Origin: a virus
Length of the DNA: 40,843 nucleotides
IMG/VR virus record: IMGVR_UViG_3300006844_000025
Coordinates: 1-40,843 of that record
Reading direction: 5' to 3' (one strand)
The notes beneath the pieces were generated by a model. That model was not told the origin of the DNA. It worked only from the letters and a program-made list of their open reading frames with translations, and made no database searches. The translations under genes were made by a program, and so were the position numbers. Of the stretch, positions 4,565 through 40,843 are shown piece by piece (positions within the stretch are counted from its first letter, which is position 1; the number at the start of each line of letters is the position of its first letter).

Positions 4565-5368
4565 ATGCGGATTTTCATACCATCCCGTGGTCGGGGACCG
4601 CACAGACAACTGACGTATGAAGTCCTGCGTCATACAGGGTTCCCGATCACCACGGTATGCCACTCCGAAGATAAGATACTATGGCCTGAATGGGAAGCTG
4701 AACCATTCCCACACGATCACTACTCGCAAGTCCGGCAGCATTGCATTGACCTAAGCGTCACACCTATATTTATCGTAGATGACGACTTTAAGAGTTGGTC
4801 GTGGTATCGCGGAGGAAGCCTGTGGACTAAGGCAACTACGGATGAGATTGTCCAAGGGTTTGACGAGGTCTATGGGCTGCTCCAAACACACGCGATGGTG
4901 GGGATAGGGCAGCGGTTCATGGTAAACCAGCGACCGCTGCTCCACGAATGCACCAGAGTGAATGGCTGCATCGGCATAAATCCAACGCTGCTGCGCCGTG
5001 CGGGTGCGACGTTCCGCCTGCCGGTGATGGGTGACTTTGACCTAAATCTGCAACTGTTGACGAAGGGCTACAAGACCCTGACCTACAATAAGCTCGTGTT
5101 TGAACAAGCGGGCAGCAACACGGAGGGAGGGTGCAGTATCTACCGCACTAATGAAGTACAGTCACGCGGAGCGGAGGCACTCGCCGCACTGTGGCCGGAG
5201 TTTGTCAGCATACGCAAGAAGGAAACCAAACACTCATGGGGAGGCCAGCCTCGGCTGGACGTGTCATGTCGATGGAAGGCGGCATTTCTGAGCTCTGCTA
5301 CTGGATCAAAGAACGGGAATCCATTAGAAGACGAAAAGAAGATGGACACGCCAAACCCTGGACCATAG
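4565..5368 (+). CDS. TET-associated-type glycosyltransferase (DNA base glycosylation)
   Basis: A 267-residue GT-A-like glycosyltransferase. It opens with MRIFIPSRGR, a typical start of the phage TET-associated glycosyltransferase (TAGT) group. It carries a DxD-type metal/sugar-nucleotide motif FIVDDD (residues 72-77) and a later GDFDLNLQLL segment. Family knowledge (Iyer and co-workers' computational work on base-modification systems): TAGT enzymes are predicted to add sugars to oxidised or hydroxymethylated pyrimidines in phage DNA. Here the neighbours are an HMUDK-helical-like protein and a dUMP hydroxymethylase-like enzyme, so 5-hydroxymethyluracil or a derivative is the inferred acceptor. 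The start follows the previous stop by 3 nt. The C-terminal 35 residues overlap the next gene. An ordinary sugar transferase is possible but less likely in this context. Confidence 0.72.
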   Translation: MRIFIPSRGRGPHRQLTYEVLRHTGFPITTVCHSEDKILWPEWEAEPFPHDHYSQVRQHCIDLSVTPIFIVDDDFKSWSWYRGGSLWTKATTDEIVQGFDEVYGLLQTHAMVGIGQRFMVNQRPLLHECTRVNGCIGINPTLLRRAGATFRLPVMGDFDLNLQLLTKGYKTLTYNKLVFEQAGSNTEGGCSIYRTNEVQSRGAEALAALWPEFVSIRKKETKHSWGGQPRLDVSCRWKAAFLSSATGSKNGNPLEDEKKMDTPNPGP

Positions 5369-6099
5369 ATCCAGTCCTGCAACGCTTCCGCTTCTGCAAC
5401 GTGCGGCGGGAAGATGATACGGTAACGAAATGGATCAGGAATCATTGGGGTGAGTTCGTAGCTCACCCCAATTACGTTTTGGCGATGGCGCTCGCTCGGT
5501 ATATCAATTGGCCGGACACGCTAGCATTCATAGGCTTCCCCGACCAGTGGGACCCCGACGAGATATTGAAGCGGCTCCATCACTTACAGCAAATGAAGCG
5601 CAAGATCTGGACCAGCGCCTACATCGTAAGTACGAACGGGAACCCTGTGCGCAAGACGGAGTACGTAGTCTGCCATGTGCTAGACAACATCGCGAACGCC
5701 CGCCTAGAATTCAACAAGGGTGATACGCTCGTAGCAACCAGCGACCGTCTGCTGTCGTTTGACGGTGTCGGTACGTTCATGGCGGGGCAGATCATAGCAG
5801 ACCTCAAGAACACGCCGCGCCATCCCTTGGAGAATGCAGAGGACTGGTGGAGCTGGTGCGCCAAAGGACCGGGGAGCATGCGCGGGTTGAACCGCATTTG
5901 CGAACTATCCCTACATAGTAACTGGAATGACGGCTATTTCCAAGCCGAGGTGAACCGGATCCGCAAGGCTGTGGAGGAGCGGACCGGGATGTTGCTGTGC
6001 GCGCAAGACATACAGAACTGCCTCTGTGAATTCGACAAGTGGAAAAGGGTGATGGCTGGACAAGGTAGACCAAGACAAACATATCCGGGAGTCGTATGA
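5266..6099 (+). CDS. HMUDK-helical / aGPT-PPlase-like thymine-hypermodification protein
   Basis: A protein of about 277 residues. It shows the ERESIRRRKEDG...KPWTIDPVLQRFRFCNVRREDD pattern near the N terminus, which I recognise as the helical domain found in 5-hydroxymethyl-dU DNA kinases and in the alpha-glutamyl/putrescinyl thymine pyrophosphorylase (aGPT-PPlase) group. That group has a DNA-glycosylase-like helical fold. A LLSFDGVGTFMAGQIIADL segment matches a helix-hairpin-helix. No P-loop is present, so it is not itself the kinase. Inferred role: acting on hydroxymethylated or activated thymine in DNA. The start is uncertain: 5266 and 5272 are the closest ATGs, and earlier in-frame starts at 5191 and 5236 extend into the glycosyltransferase gene. 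It overlaps the next gene by ATGA. Confidence 0.72.
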   Translation: MSMEGGISELCYWIKERESIRRRKEDGHAKPWTIDPVLQRFRFCNVRREDDTVTKWIRNHWGEFVAHPNYVLAMALARYINWPDTLAFIGFPDQWDPDEILKRLHHLQQMKRKIWTSAYIVSTNGNPVRKTEYVVCHVLDNIANARLEFNKGDTLVATSDRLLSFDGVGTFMAGQIIADLKNTPRHPLENAEDWWSWCAKGPGSMRGLNRICELSLHSNWNDGYFQAEVNRIRKAVEERTGMLLCAQDIQNCLCEFDKWKRVMAGQGRPRQTYPGVV

Positions 6100-7055
6100 A
6101 TACACACATAATCGTAGGTAGGAACGTCCATCATGTATTACAGGATGCTTGTTGGGCCGTGGAGGTCAGCGGCATCCGCGAACAGACACGCAACGGAATG
6201 GTACAGTCGCTACCGGGACCCGTGATGGTGGAGTACAAGCAGCCCAACGAGCGGGTGCTCATCTGGCCGGAGCGCAAGGCTAATCCCTACTTCCACCTCT
6301 TTGAAGCACTGTGGATGCTGGCGGGCAGGCAGGATGTGAAATGGGTAGGTGATTTCAATCCGCGCATGGCGGAGTTCAGCGACGACGGTCATACCCTCGG
6401 CGGCGCATACGGCCATCGCTGGCGGCATCACTTTGGCTTGGATCAAATCAAGCTGGTAATCAACACTTTGCGGGAGGCCACCTCCCGGCGCGCGGTGATT
6501 GCCATGTGGGATCCCATGGAAGACCTATGGTATGAGGAAAAGAAAGACATCCCTTGCAACACGCACATCTATTTCCGTATTATCAATGGACGGTTGGACA
6601 TGACGGTATGTAACCGAAGCAATGACCTTATCTGGGGTATGTGCGGCTCCAATGTGGTCCACTTCAGCATGCTACACGAGCTGCTCGCCAATGCAACGGG
6701 GACGGCGCTGGGGCGATATTTCCACCTATCTAACAACCTCCACATCTACGATGCCGTACCGAAGCGGGAACTGTACCGGAAGCCGATTATAGAAGATCCA
6801 TACACCAGTAGAAACGGCGTGGTGGCGTCACCGTTAATCACGTCTGGCTGGCGGGACTGGCTGAATGACTGCGAGCGGTTCGTGGAAGACCCAATGGCCG
6901 ACTGCCAAGACCCTTTCTTCAAGGGCGTGGCGAAGCCGATGTACGATGCTTGGGTAGCTCACGGGGATGAGCCACTGGCGCAATGTCGCGCGGAGGACTG
7001 GAAGAGGGCTGGATCACAATATTTTGCTGGCACTTCGGGCACAGAAATGTTATAA
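6096..7055 (+). CDS. thymidylate synthase-fold enzyme, probable dUMP hydroxymethylase
   Basis: A 319-residue thymidylate synthase superfamily enzyme. Visible features are the phosphate-binding SRRAV (130-134), the catalytic Cys154 in DIPCNTH, and CNRSNDLIWG (172-181) followed by Asn186 in CGSNVVHFS. The last Asn is the uracil-discriminating position; dCMP enzymes carry Asp there. Family knowledge: phage members with the IPCNT and NRSND signatures are annotated either as thymidylate synthase or as dUMP hydroxymethyltransferase, which makes 5-hydroxymethyl-dUMP for modified DNA. Lying behind two DNA-hypermodification genes favours hydroxymethylation, but the sequence alone does not separate the two reactions. 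The ATG overlaps the previous stop (ATGA). The TAA stop is embedded in the promoter at 7051-7056. Confidence 0.85.
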   Translation: MNTHIIVGRNVHHVLQDACWAVEVSGIREQTRNGMVQSLPGPVMVEYKQPNERVLIWPERKANPYFHLFEALWMLAGRQDVKWVGDFNPRMAEFSDDGHTLGGAYGHRWRHHFGLDQIKLVINTLREATSRRAVIAMWDPMEDLWYEEKKDIPCNTHIYFRIINGRLDMTVCNRSNDLIWGMCGSNVVHFSMLHELLANATGTALGRYFHLSNNLHIYDAVPKRELYRKPIIEDPYTSRNGVVASPLITSGWRDWLNDCERFVEDPMADCQDPFFKGVAKPMYDAWVAHGDEPLAQCRAEDWKRAGSQYFAGTSGTEML

Positions 7056-8212: not shown

Positions 8213-8380
8213 GTGAAAATCGGTAAAGCAGTATGGACGTTGGTCGGTGTAACCGGCGTGTTGCTCGGGTTCGTGGGGGGCATGATGACCCGTGACGTGC
8301 TGGCAGTTTCCCAGCTTGAAATAGCGATGCATCAAAACGCGCAAGCTTATGTACGTCATTGCATCAGGTTCATGCACTGA
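8213..8380 (+). CDS. 55-residue single-span membrane protein
   Basis: GTG start after AAGGAATC. The residues after KIGKA form one hydrophobic segment (VWTLVGVTGVLLGFVGGMM), followed by a short polar tail of about 30 residues with MHQNAQAYVRHCIRFMH. The topology would be N-in with a small periplasmic tail. It could be part of a lysis cassette or a membrane anchor, but no partner gene is seen. The stop overlaps the next ATG (TGATG). Confidence 0.65.
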   Translation: MKIGKAVWTLVGVTGVLLGFVGGMMTRDVLAVSQLEIAMHQNAQAYVRHCIRFMH

Positions 8381-9213
8381 TGGATAAGCTACCGATTGCA
8401 ACAGGGGATGCCGTCCAGCGGCTCACCCGTGATCTTGCCAAAGCCGCCGCCACCTTGACCACTGATGAAGCACGGTTCTTGGTGGACTATTACTACATCA
8501 CCCAGGAGGACCGCAAGCGCGCGGGCAACCAGGAGCGAGCGCTAGACGAAGACCGGGAGCCGCACGGCGTCTTAAGCTGGCTGTTTGACCAGAGTGCCAC
8601 CATTGAAAATCAAATCAAGCGGGCGCTAGATGCCTACACGAACGCCAGTCCGCTTGGACAATGGGCGCGGGACCACTACGGGATTGGGCCGGTGATTGCA
8701 GCAGGGCTGCTCGCCCACATTGACCTGGAGCGTGCGCCCACGGCGGGCCATATCTGGCGGTACGCCGGACTGGACCCCACGGTGAAGTGGGAAAAGGGGC
8801 AGAAGCGGCCCTGGAACAGCAGCCTCAAAACCCTGTGCTGGAAGATAGGGCAAAGCTTTATGAAGTTCCACGGGCAAGAGGAGTGCTTCTACGGGCACAT
8901 CTACCTAGCGCGGAAGCAGTATGAAGTGGAGCGCAATGACAAGGGCGTGAACGCGGAGCTGTGCAAGACCATCCTAGCCGGTAAGAACTTTAGCAAAACC
9001 ACGGATGCGTTCAAGCACTACACGAGTGGGAAATTGCCCCCGGCACAGATAGATGCGCGTGCGCGCCGGTATGCGGTGAAGATATTCCTAAGCCACTACC
9101 ACGCGGCGGGCTATCGGTTAATCCTGGGCAAGGAACCGCCGGTGCCGTTCCCCATTGCGCACATGGGTCACACGCATATGATTGAAGCACCAGTGAAGAG
9201 CCACCTGAAGTGA
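8380..9213 (+). CDS. IS110-like helix-hairpin-helix protein (domesticated transposase domain)
   Basis: A 277-residue phage protein whose middle part (about 95-160) contains RDHYGIGPVIAAGLLAHIDL and WRYAGLDP. This is the helix-hairpin-helix pattern of the C-terminal Transposase_20 domain of IS110/IS116/IS902 transposases. The N-terminal DEDD catalytic domain of IS110 is missing and no transposon ends are visible, so it is a stand-alone DNA-binding domain and not an insertion sequence. The N-terminal 90 residues are helical; the C terminus is basic. It is the last gene of the rightward unit. Its final codons already show the phase of the repeat array that begins on its stop codon. Confidence 0.7.
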   Translation: MDKLPIATGDAVQRLTRDLAKAAATLTTDEARFLVDYYYITQEDRKRAGNQERALDEDREPHGVLSWLFDQSATIENQIKRALDAYTNASPLGQWARDHYGIGPVIAAGLLAHIDLERAPTAGHIWRYAGLDPTVKWEKGQKRPWNSSLKTLCWKIGQSFMKFHGQEECFYGHIYLARKQYEVERNDKGVNAELCKTILAGKNFSKTTDAFKHYTSGKLPPAQIDARARRYAVKIFLSHYHAAGYRLILGKEPPVPFPIAHMGHTHMIEAPVKSHLK

Positions 9214-9558
9214 GCGTACCACAAGGGGTTAGCGAGCCAAATCTGAAAAGCGTACCACATGTGACAAGCGAGCCAAGATCAAAGAGTGTACCTAGCCTGA
9301 GGAGCGAGCCACGTCCGATGAGTGTTCCAATGGGTAAGAGCGAGCCAGTAAGTGGGAGAGTACCAAGCTTTGTGAGCGAGCCAAAGATATAGAGCGTACC
9401 ATGTTGGACGAGCGAGCCATCATGAGCTAGAGTGCCACTGGTAGGGAGCGAGCCAGGAAATCGGAGTGTACCAAAGTTCGCGAGCGAGCCCGTAGACATG
9501 AGTGTACCAAGGTAGGAGAGCGAGCCATCCAAGCTGAGTGTGCCAGATAACGCGAGCG
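9195..9558. repeat. array of 18-bp units alternating with 36-bp super-period
   Basis: Nineteen uninterrupted 18-bp units start at 9213 and every 18 bp to 9537, plus a truncated unit at 9555 and a degenerate one at 9195 inside the preceding gene. Each unit is a 9-bp core and a 9-bp variable segment. Cores alternate strictly: odd units AGYGTACCA-like (variants AGAGTACCA, AGTGTTCCA, AGAGTGCCA, AGTGTGCCA), even units an almost invariant AGCGAGCCA. The array fills the junction between converging transcription units. Read leftward it is open throughout and encodes hexapeptides GSLxxxGTLxxx. Read rightward (SVPxxxSEPxxx) it has stops at 9390 and 9426. It may be a coding repeat, a DNA-binding array or a transcription-collision zone. 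Spacers of 9 nt and no cas genes rule out CRISPR. Confidence 0.95.
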
Positions 9559-25393: not shown

Positions 25394-25691
25394 GGTCTAT
25401 ATTCCTGGCAAGTTCTCGCTTAATGGCTTCGCGTTCTTCGGAGGAGTGGTTCCAGGGTTGATTTGCAAGCAAGGGTGGTAGACCCTGAAGCTCCTGTGTT
25501 GGAACAACATCGTGTCGTAAGCAATGTTCCCGCATCCCGCGACGCCCACGGACAATAGTGCCATCAATAGACGACACAAAGTCCTGAATGTCTGGTACAA
25601 TCGTCGGCCCTACGGAGGGGGCAGAAGGTGATACATACTCATTGGCCGGGATTAGATTGCCCGTTCGGTCCTGAACCCATTTCTTTCGCAT
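25347..25691 (-). CDS. conserved small phage protein between portal and scaffold
   Basis: A 114-residue protein opening MRKKWVQDRTGNLIPANEYV and containing IQDFVSSIDGTIVRGRRGMREHCLRHDVVP. Proteins of this form are regularly encoded directly after phage portal genes; their function is unknown. It overlaps the portal gene by 53 nt and the scaffold gene by 47 nt. Confidence 0.8.
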   Translation of the reverse strand: MRKKWVQDRTGNLIPANEYVSPSAPSVGPTIVPDIQDFVSSIDGTIVRGRRGMREHCLRHDVVPTQELQGLPPLLANQPWNHSSEEREAIKRELARNIDHARRNKLPKFKFPES

Positions 25692-27690
25692 TCTGTTGTG
25701 CCTGTTGGAACATTGCTTTCGCCACGCCGAGGCGCAGGTCGGACTGCGTCTTCGCTTGCTTCGCTTGAATGTCAGCCTTGGTGGTCATTACCTTCGCTTG
25801 CACGTCCGCCTGCGCCTTCATTTGTACAGCTTTCGCTTCAGTCTGTGCCTTGATTTGCGATGCTTTGATGTCCGCCTCAGCCTTAAGCTGAGCCGGATCA
25901 GGCTTGGGCGGTTGCTGCGCTTGCTGCTGAACCATTTGTTCAATCTGCTGCAATGCCCGATCCACAGCCCCCTCCACGTCCTTACCTACCTTGAATCCGG
26001 CAATGCCGAACTTAAGTAGGGATATTGTCAGTGGAAGGAGCTGAGGCATCTGTTGCACTGCGACCACCGCTTTCTCCATGTAAGTGGACACTGCGCCAAG
26101 GAATTCTATGCGTTCCTGTTTCTCCTTGGTGTAGTCCGTTTGCGCCAGGGAGTCCGGCTGAATGGTGATCCGCCACTGGAAGGTCCCTGGGTTCTTAAGC
26201 AACTTGAGAGCCTCCGGAACATACGGGAGGTCTGCTGGTTCCATCTGTTCGCAGTTCGCCTTGCGCTCTAGAATTTCCGGCGTATAGTGCCTTGCTGCGA
26301 TTTCCCCCTTAATACGAAGGATTTGCGTGCCAAAGTCCAAAATGCACTTCTGCAGCGATTGGATGCGCACACTGGCGAACTGCGCCTTCAACTCTTGCGC
26401 ACCCAAGGTTTCTGATGCCTTGGTCGCCCCGCGCACGATGTCCGCGATACCAGTGAGTTCGTAGATTTGCTGCTTGAGGTCTTCCCGTGCCTGCCGAAGC
26501 CGCTCCAGGCACAGCGCAATCATGTCCAACGGGAGCCAGTCTACTTGCCCCTTGATGCCGCCCTTCTCCGCGAACATCGCCCAATTATCCACCGGGACCA
26601 GGGTGTTTTCGTTGCCTTGCAACAGCCGCTGGACCCCTTCGCTGGAGCGGTCGTAGACGCCCGCCACCTTGCAAGCCGAAACGAGGAGGTCAATGCGCGT
26701 GTTGACGAGGTCCAGGGAATTGTACTGGTCTTGCCACAAGGTAAAGTCCGGAACCGGGACCAGCCTGGACGTGGTAGTCGTAGCGAAGAGCGGACGGGGA
26801 AAGGTATCAAAGTCGCTGAGCGCCAAAGGATCTTCTTTGGTGTCGAGAAGGTAGTCACAGTCGAGACAAACCCAGAGGACTTCCCTACGCTCGCGGTCCC
26901 AGATCTCGTACACTTCCGCCTGCTTGAAAATGAGCTCTTCTGGCTTGATGGCGTTGGTGTCATCGGTGCTCTTGACCCCCTTTTTGAGCGGAACCGCCCT
27001 GCCTATTTCTTCCCCGAAACGCTCCACCAACTTGTCGCGTGTCATCATAACCCGCCGACCGCCCCACCTGCGCTCTTCCCATGTGCGACACGGCGACCAG
27101 ATAAAATCCTTGAAGTGGACCCACTCGGTGCGCACCTGCTGATCCACCACTTGCTCAACGGCGGTGGAAGCGTCTTGGAGCGGCTGCTGCTGATCCATCT
27201 GCACCATTTGCGTCGTGGTTTCCAGCCGGAGCCACGCCTGCCCCATCCCCGGGACGAGCCTATTTTGGATGGCTTGCAGCATCGCCGGGGAAAAGTCCTC
27301 GTGAGAAGCATCTAAGTCCTGCTGAAGCGCCCGTTGCAGGATCGACGCGGCTACGCGCGCCACATCATCATTTGAGTCTTTGAAGGTACGGCTGACTTCC
27401 ACCTTCGGGACGGCGTTGTACAGCGCGCTTTGCATGATCTGCACGTTGGAAGTGTAAATGTTGAACCGCCGCTCCTCGGAGTGCTCCGTGCCCCGCTCGT
27501 CAAGGAACCGATTTTCGCATTCGTCACCTTGCTCCCACCAATCTTCCAGTTCCTTTTGTGCCATGCGGATTTCGGCCTTCCACCGCTTGCATTTCCCGTC
27601 CTTTTCCTCTGCTTCGTACGCCAGAAGAGAGTCAATAACTCCGGCGGACGACCCAGCGGAGGCGGTAGCAGCGACGTCATATTGGCTCAT
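25639..27690 (-). CDS. portal protein
   Basis: A 683-residue podovirus portal. The N-terminal helices (CKRWKAEIRMAQKELEDWWEQGDECENRF), NIYTSNVQIMQSALYNAVPKVEVSRTF and the DDVARVAASILQRALQQDL stretch match head-to-tail connector proteins. The stem/crown region includes LTGIADIVRGATKASETLGAQELKAQ. The C terminus is a long Lys/Ala/Gln coiled coil (LKAEADIKASQIKAQTEAKA), as in other portals with extended barrels. It directly follows the terminase gene. Confidence 0.92.
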   Translation of the reverse strand: MSQYDVAATASAGSSAGVIDSLLAYEAEEKDGKCKRWKAEIRMAQKELEDWWEQGDECENRFLDERGTEHSEERRFNIYTSNVQIMQSALYNAVPKVEVSRTFKDSNDDVARVAASILQRALQQDLDASHEDFSPAMLQAIQNRLVPGMGQAWLRLETTTQMVQMDQQQPLQDASTAVEQVVDQQVRTEWVHFKDFIWSPCRTWEERRWGGRRVMMTRDKLVERFGEEIGRAVPLKKGVKSTDDTNAIKPEELIFKQAEVYEIWDRERREVLWVCLDCDYLLDTKEDPLALSDFDTFPRPLFATTTTSRLVPVPDFTLWQDQYNSLDLVNTRIDLLVSACKVAGVYDRSSEGVQRLLQGNENTLVPVDNWAMFAEKGGIKGQVDWLPLDMIALCLERLRQAREDLKQQIYELTGIADIVRGATKASETLGAQELKAQFASVRIQSLQKCILDFGTQILRIKGEIAARHYTPEILERKANCEQMEPADLPYVPEALKLLKNPGTFQWRITIQPDSLAQTDYTKEKQERIEFLGAVSTYMEKAVVAVQQMPQLLPLTISLLKFGIAGFKVGKDVEGAVDRALQQIEQMVQQQAQQPPKPDPAQLKAEADIKASQIKAQTEAKAVQMKAQADVQAKVMTTKADIQAKQAKTQSDLRLGVAKAMFQQAQQNAKEMGSGPNGQSNPGQ

Positions 27691-40207: not shown

Positions 40208-40379
40208 CAAGCTGGAAGATGAAATGCGGGAAATCGCTATGCGACACGCCACTACGGACATGAACGGCAATCCTATATGGACTTTGGAACGGGTCTTGAT
40301 TGCGATGTTTGAAGCACGGATCCATGCGTTCACGGAATTGTCCGAAAGCACGAAGGCGCATATCCGTGTTAGTGCTTGA
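40194..40379 (+). CDS. small protein upstream of DNA polymerase
   Basis: A 61-residue, mostly helical protein (MLNSDKLEDEMREIAMRHATTDMNG, then TLERVLIAMFEARIHAFTELSES). AAAGGAA precedes the ATG, which overlaps the previous gene by 14 nt; its stop overlaps the polymerase start region by 14 nt. No family is recognised. Confidence 0.7.
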   Translation: MLNSDKLEDEMREIAMRHATTDMNGNPIWTLERVLIAMFEARIHAFTELSESTKAHIRVSA

Positions 40380-40843
40380 CTTCGAAACGCAGGCTATCAT
40401 AGGGAACCCGAGCGTTGCCCCACCTCGGCCGGTGGGGCTGGCCATGAAACGTCCCGGGTTCCCTTCTTTCTATCTTGATTGGGGCCATCCGGACAGCAAG
40501 GATCCAGCTAGGGAAACGATTGCGCGGGCGACGGTAGCCGAGGCCATCCGCAACAAGGAGCCACTGCTGTTCCAAAACGGTAAGTTTGATATTGCGGTGA
40601 TGGAACGATGGTGGGGCTTGTCACCGGATCCCCTTTTGTGCGAAGATACCTTGTACCAAATCTTCCTCTATGACCCTTATGCGGACAGCTTTTCCCTTAA
40701 ATCCTCAGCAGAGCGTATTTTGGGCATCAAGCCCGAAGAACAAAACACGCTGCATTCCTGGATTGTTGCGAACTTCCGCGTCAAGGAAAAGGAAGCAGGT
40801 GCTTATATCGCGCAAGCTCCGGTTGAACTTGTTTCTCCGTACG
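40366..40843 (+). CDS. polA: DNA polymerase family A, 3'-5' exonuclease part (5' part of split gene)
   Basis: First 159 residues of the polymerase, cut by the contig end. Exonuclease motif I LDFETQ (Asp5, Glu7) and motif II FQNGKFDIAVM are intact; motif III (Y-x3-D) starts with the Tyr in the last codons VSPY and is completed at base 1 (RGDVDRT). The GTG at 40366 is preceded by GAAGG; no ATG is available before the DFET motif. Joining base 40843 to base 1 shifts the frame: two bases are missing for an intact reading (Y-A-R-G-D). Confidence 0.92.
   Translation, partial: MLVLDFETQAIIGNPSVAPPRPVGLAMKRPGFPSFYLDWGHPDSKDPARETIARATVAEAIRNKEPLLFQNGKFDIAVMERWWGLSPDPLLCEDTLYQIFLYDPYADSFSLKSSAERILGIKPEEQNTLHSWIVANFRVKEKEAGAYIAQAPVELVSPY

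Follow-up and report, generated by a model that had tools for sequence, protein, structure and literature searches.

In a virus contig of 40,843 bases from IMG/VR, without terminal repeats and analysed over its whole length (the window), three adjacent genes probably decorate the thymines of the phage DNA with a sugar. The middle gene encodes an HMUDK_hel protein (hel), and comparison of about a hundred related gene clusters revealed repeated exchange of its partner: a P-loop 5-hmdU DNA kinase and a TAGT-family glycosyltransferase usually occupy one slot, directly upstream of hel. The comparison suggests that hel is a shared DNA-handling module, combined by phages with different decorating enzymes.

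The three genes of the cassette lie head to tail at 4565-7055, where a preliminary description of the window had put them, and all three ORFs were verified at these positions. They are given here with the two polymerase fragments at the contig ends.

1..1293, + strand, DNA polymerase I, C-terminal half (PF00476, 8.9e-50)
4565..5368, + strand, TAGT-family GT-A glycosyltransferase, 267 aa (PF20691, phrog_842, AF2 model)
5236..6099, start uncertain, + strand, HMUDK_hel (aGPT-PPlase1) protein (PF18723, phrog_2396, AF2 model)
6096..7055, + strand, TS-fold enzyme, 319 aa, predicted dUMP hydroxymethylase (phrog_5131, PF00303, C154/N186)
40300..40843, + strand, DNA polymerase I, N-terminal half (phrog_17)

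The hel ORF is maximal from GTG 5191, conservation begins downstream of this codon, and ATG 5236, 5266 or 5272 appears the likelier start. Depending on the ATG chosen, hel overlaps the TAGT gene by about 97-133 nt; the overlap of hel with the TS gene is 4 nt (ATGA). The overlapping arrangement described earlier was retained and the start of hel was corrected to one of these ATG codons. Profile searches (Pfam and PHROGs) returned the three families that had been proposed, TAGT, HMUDK_hel and Thymidylat_synt; NCBIfam had no model for hel or the TAGT transferase. The glycosyltransferase matched PF20691 (E=9.6e-8, 32.6 bits with a cut-off of 27.5, profile positions 1-203 of 205) and phrog_842 (9e-26), and D72-D73-D74, D157, G188-G189, W225 and W237 were invariant in 30 relatives. 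PDB matches of its AF2 model (pLDDT 89.5) were of GT-A type (best glycosyltransferase E=4e-6), and KdsB-type nucleotidyltransferases matched equally well. The protein has the acidic metal-binding motif (DDD, residues 72-74) and, as judged from the model, the GT-A fold of TAGT enzymes. Its predicted acceptor for the sugar is the hydroxymethyl group of 5-hmdU in DNA.

The TS-fold protein matched PF00303 (Thymidylat_synt, E=6.6e-24) and phrog_5131 (7e-97). Its nearest relatives are the enzymes of M6/YuA-type phages (43% identity over 97%), which are known as dUMP hydroxymethylases; in pairwise terms the enzyme shares 44% identity with M6 gp58, against 22% with E. coli ThyA and 17% with T4 gp42. 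Aligning it with E. coli ThyA and M6 gp58 shows that the catalytic Cys154 and Asn186, the two residues pointed out in the preliminary description, are both conserved. At the base-recognition site Asn186 is of uridine type, in contrast to the Asp of the T4 dCMP hydroxymethylase (gp42). From these residues and identities the enzyme is predicted to be a dUMP hydroxymethylase that makes 5-hmdUMP.

The ends of the contig cut DNA polymerase I, and the joined halves are short of about one codon (2 nt). In 30-odd homologues compared, with the single exception of L029, the polymerase halves are separated by exactly one residue. The ends therefore join in polA with a one-residue gap, and the circle of the genome is almost closed. 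The kinase and an amino acid:DNA transferase are thus truly absent from this genome; loss of a kinase at a contig end is ruled out. The kinase had already been reported missing, and a PF18748 search over the whole record accordingly gave 0 candidates, while home-built kinase and ADDT profiles, run on the window with filters off, found nothing better than E=0.24. A single Walker-A pattern match in another ORF (26541-26963, − strand) falls within the region covered by the portal gene (25639-27690) and was dismissed as spurious. A Pfam scan of ten early-region ORFs showed no TET/JBP dioxygenase, the enzyme that would act on thymine in DNA in a base-J-like pathway, and neither alpha-GT nor beta-GT was seen among the ORFs scanned. 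Recognised genes include those for the portal, major head protein, large terminase, amidase and tail fibres; tape measure and sheath genes were not seen among the ORFs scanned, which fits a podovirus without proving it. Known RNA families were absent from the window. At 9213-9554 there is an array of ~19 units with a strict 18-nt period, in which a conserved 9-mer alternates between AGCGTACCA and AGCGAGCCA with variable 9-nt spacers between; it was absent from every other fetched locus. The ORF at 8359-9213 stops exactly at the start of the array and matched phrog_4285 ('transposase') and Pfam Transposase_20, over a short stretch only (residues 107-143).

Relatives of hel were collected by an alignment-based scan of viral contigs, which gave at least 558 confirmed relatives, of which the best 80 were used. 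For TAGT, scanning viral contigs with the single sequence found nothing, its patterns being too specific, and an alignment-based scan with the transferase succeeded. Among 95 hel loci (from the best 80 of the at least 558 relatives, and others), home-built profiles detected TAGT in 42 and the kinase in 28, never the two together, with an amino acid:DNA transferase only alongside the kinase. Several kinase matches in these relatives fall under the Pfam cut-off; by Pfam over 69 whole records, PF18748 and PF20691 never share a record. Removal of near-copies from these 95 left 81 hel loci, with TAGT in 35 (including the divergent TAGT of L084, assigned by phrog_842), kinase in 27 and both in 0, against 11.7 expected (hypergeometric P=1.8e-9, a value that treats the loci as independent, which they are not). 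Of 34 scored TAGT loci, 32 had TAGT upstream of hel, and in 29 the two genes overlapped or lay no more than 50 nt apart; the kinase was upstream in 25 of its 27 loci, at a distance of up to 50 nt in 21. Starting conversely from the transferase, hel was found in 63 of 77 TAGT loci, 61 of these also with TS, and the kinase in none; nine had neither hel nor TS and five more had TS and no recognised hel, some of these being fragments.

That the exclusion reflects one split between clades was rejected by the hel tree and the AU test, a result that does not rest on the hypergeometric P. A carefully built tree of 80 hel proteins calls for 8 switches between TAGT and kinase; for the kinase label, no fewer than 5 changes are required even if only well-supported branches are counted. 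Constraining the kinase class to a single clade lowers the log-likelihood by 173 units and is rejected (p-AU 6e-92); the partner of hel has therefore been exchanged repeatedly. Two pairs of loci show replacement in place. L030 and L032 are collinear (hel 73%, TS 68%, polymerase 68%, helicase 72% identical), with TAGT in L030 and a GT-B-type glycosyltransferase in L032; in L054 and L084 the shared neighbouring genes are about 58-90% identical, and it is again the slot gene that differs. No published description of this exchange was found in the literature covered, which lies outside the primary papers on these families.

Loci with TS nearby and neither TAGT nor kinase mostly carry another gene upstream of hel. 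Among these are GT-B-type glycosyltransferases (L006 and L033 by weak Pfam matches, L032 and L079 as their relatives) and radical SAM enzymes (L038, L043 and also L036); the slot labels of L036, L023, L024, L060 and L054 come from position and a reading of the sequence, without a profile match. A family of 317-382 aa lies upstream of hel at L021:9081-10034, L022:9096-10052, L034:104-1057 and L068:4281-5429; L021 and L068 were scanned and gave no Pfam or PHROG match, and the family possibly consists of GT-B-like glycosyltransferases. At L174:3324-5063 a natural fusion of TAGT and a radical SAM/SPASM domain (579 aa) stands beside hel and TS. One hel clade (L052, L071, L074, L077, L082) occurs in mostly large contigs (up to 463 kb) with TS not nearby, and in L077 a nucleoside-hydrolase-like gene precedes hel.

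Genes for hel were found in cellular genomes too. In 24 bacterial loci a TylF-type O-methyltransferase gene lies upstream of hel, directly so in most, often with genes for a ~530-aa TS-fold protein, Nmad2 and ThsB-like TIR proteins close by. Chromosomal islands with this gene set (L212:1028-7056, L200, L243, L237, L226 and similar ones) look like defence or DNA-modification islands. The haloarchaeal homologues L183, L185, L186 and L187 are near TIR-like genes, and the stretches fetched around them hold no TS, kinase or TAGT.

The best explanation of the cassette, and in our judgement a reasonably probable one, is that 5-hmdUMP is made by the TS-fold enzyme, incorporated and then glycosylated directly, with hel presenting the base; here we infer the chemistry, the sugar and the role of hel. 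By homology, the TS-fold enzyme would convert dUMP to 5-hydroxymethyl-dUMP, which would be raised to the triphosphate and built into DNA by the phage polymerase. TAGT would then glycosylate the 5-CH2OH of 5-hmdU in DNA directly, bypassing any phosphorylated intermediate, while hel, through a DNA-glycosylase-like fold, would bind the DNA and expose the modified base to the transferase. Hel may do the same for the P-loop kinase of M6-type phages and, fused into one chain, for that of SP10. A direct route of this kind had been put forward in the preliminary description and is still the most economical reading; the 'unknown step' left there for the helical protein can be narrowed to that of a shared module with an exchangeable catalytic neighbour. 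A physical partnership of TAGT and hel is suggested by adjacency, and no TAGT-hel or kinase-hel fusion occurred among the loci of the set. Kinases, glycosyltransferases and methyltransferases, as slot enzymes, are all able to act on a hydroxyl; the radical SAM enzymes in the slot of L036, L038 and L043 do not fit simple hydroxyl-directed transfer and count against the explanation, as do the TAGT loci without a recognised hel and the weakness of the likeness between hel and DNA glycosylases.

The hel protein itself matched PF18723 (E=1.5e-34, 120 bits with a cut-off of 25, profile positions 6-276 of 281) and phrog_2396 (1e-45) and is 33% identical to M6 gp55. The partner kinase implied by the name HMUDK_hel was found neither in this record nor in the other loci of the TAGT class. 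Among viral models (BFVD), the AF2 model (pLDDT 96) matched phiRSL1, phiW-14 and the SP10 5-hmdU DNA kinase (637 aa), with weaker matches to amino acid:DNA transferases and an archaeal-virus endonuclease III. HhH DNA glycosylases made up 23 of the 50 PDB structure matches listed, none of them significant, and the likeness is weak (best E about 0.6, TM about 0.25-0.34); a PDB sequence search with hel gave chance matches only. Invariant polar residues are R15, D33, N43, R46, D49, R76 and N79, and D177, D191, Q248, N249, C252, E253 and K256 are also invariant.

These data bear on the best rival explanation, that hel is an enzyme itself, for example one attaching or swapping a second group on either 5-hmdU or the sugar, and is simply co-inherited with whatever transferase a phage has. 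The fold that hel has in common with amino acid:DNA transferases and its many invariant polar residues speak for such an activity, and several unrelated neighbours are what a self-sufficient enzyme would also allow. Against this, the SP10 kinase, the only fused form met, has the hel fold within its single chain, and kinase and TAGT share one slot and are mutually exclusive, which fits a partner or adaptor better; an enzymatic hel is accordingly considered unlikely, though it deserves to be kept in view. A phosphate route, in which a host or unrecognised kinase acts and the glycosyltransferase modifies something else, e.g. a cell-surface polymer or a virion protein, draws on the divergence of the kinase, which in some relatives is too great for Pfam. 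Sensitive profiles nevertheless detected no kinase anywhere in the window, an ADDT to act on the phosphorylated base is lacking too, and the transferase gene overlaps hel and adjoins TS in dozens of unrelated phages; we regard this route as quite improbable. Slightly less probable still is a third rival, in which the TS-fold protein acts as an ordinary thymidylate synthase or as a dCMP hydroxymethylase and cytosine receives the sugar as in T-even phages, where TAGT members act on glucosylated hydroxymethylcytosine (PMC13216743), a reading that would suit the dCMP hydroxymethylase annotated in LuckyBarnes (PMC6588365) and is opposed by Asn186, by the 43-44% identity to the M6 enzyme as against ThyA and T4 gp42, and by the constant linkage to hel, whose family belongs to 5-hmdU systems.

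Carried further, direct glycosylation with presentation by hel leads to a wider and more tentative proposal, whose parts together we would place a little short of an even chance: hel, which has so far been named as a kinase component, would instead be a general reader or presenter of 5-hydroxymethyluracil in DNA with a DNA-glycosylase-like fold, served by exchangeable group-transferases in one slot (phosphate by the P-loop kinase, sugar by GT-A or GT-B enzymes, methyl by the TylF-type O-methyltransferase, and others), and the phage DNA here would carry glycosylated 5-hmdU. If true, many uncultivated phages carry glycosylated thymine by a short route, and glucosylated 5-hmdU was unreported from phages as of 2019 (PMC6449724). 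A substrate would also be found for part of the solitary TAGT genes; many members of this GT-A family are solitary and without assigned function, and solitary genes were counted in 288 of 753 phage genomes (PMC13216743). The slot exchange offers a direct test of the function of the HMUDK_hel domain and predicts that the gene upstream of hel points to new 5-hmdU chemistries.

Among known systems, M6/YuA (Yuavirus) resembles the cassette in having a TS of the dUMP-hydroxymethylase type (43%) and hel (33%) close together near polA. M6 differs in its P-loop 5-hmdU kinase (gp54), ADDT (gp51), PLP-enzyme-like gene and radical-SAM-like gene and has no TAGT; here TAGT stands in place of the kinase, and the 5-hmdU DNA kinase and amino acid:DNA transferase that characterize the M6-type amino-acid pathway are both missing. 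With the T-even TAGT enzymes (T6 gentiobiosyl-hmC transferase family) the glycosyltransferase shares PF20691 and the GT-A fold (PMC13216743); the T-even enzymes work on glucosylated hmC together with alpha-GT, whereas the precursor enzyme here is of dUMP type, and instead of the dCMP-specific hydroxymethylase with Asp at the base site that goes with T-even hmC glucosylation, it carries Asn186. In YerA41, T is proposed to carry an oligosaccharide (PMC9023294). Brevibacterium phage LuckyBarnes (gp38-gp41) has an uninterrupted series of TS-fold, TAGT and hel genes and no kinase, and differs in two TAGT genes, a longer TS (517 aa) and a hel only about 29% identical; its genes were annotated as dCMP hydroxymethylase and glycosyltransferases (PMC6588365). 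According to the passages covered of PMC9599517, which do not discuss kinase absence or partner exchange, HTVC023P-type pelagiphages, uncultivated podoviruses, carry TS, aG/PT-PPlase1 (= HMUDK_hel) and a beta-glucosyl-HMC-alpha-glucosyltransferase near polA, and a 5'-deoxynucleotidase is also reported in their cassette. The preliminary description had called the cassette an unusual minimal combination, which does not hold: the TAGT-hel-TS order occurs in most of the relatives found, and the combination is already known from the isolate LuckyBarnes, from many IMG/VR contigs and, in print, from podoviral pelagiphages.
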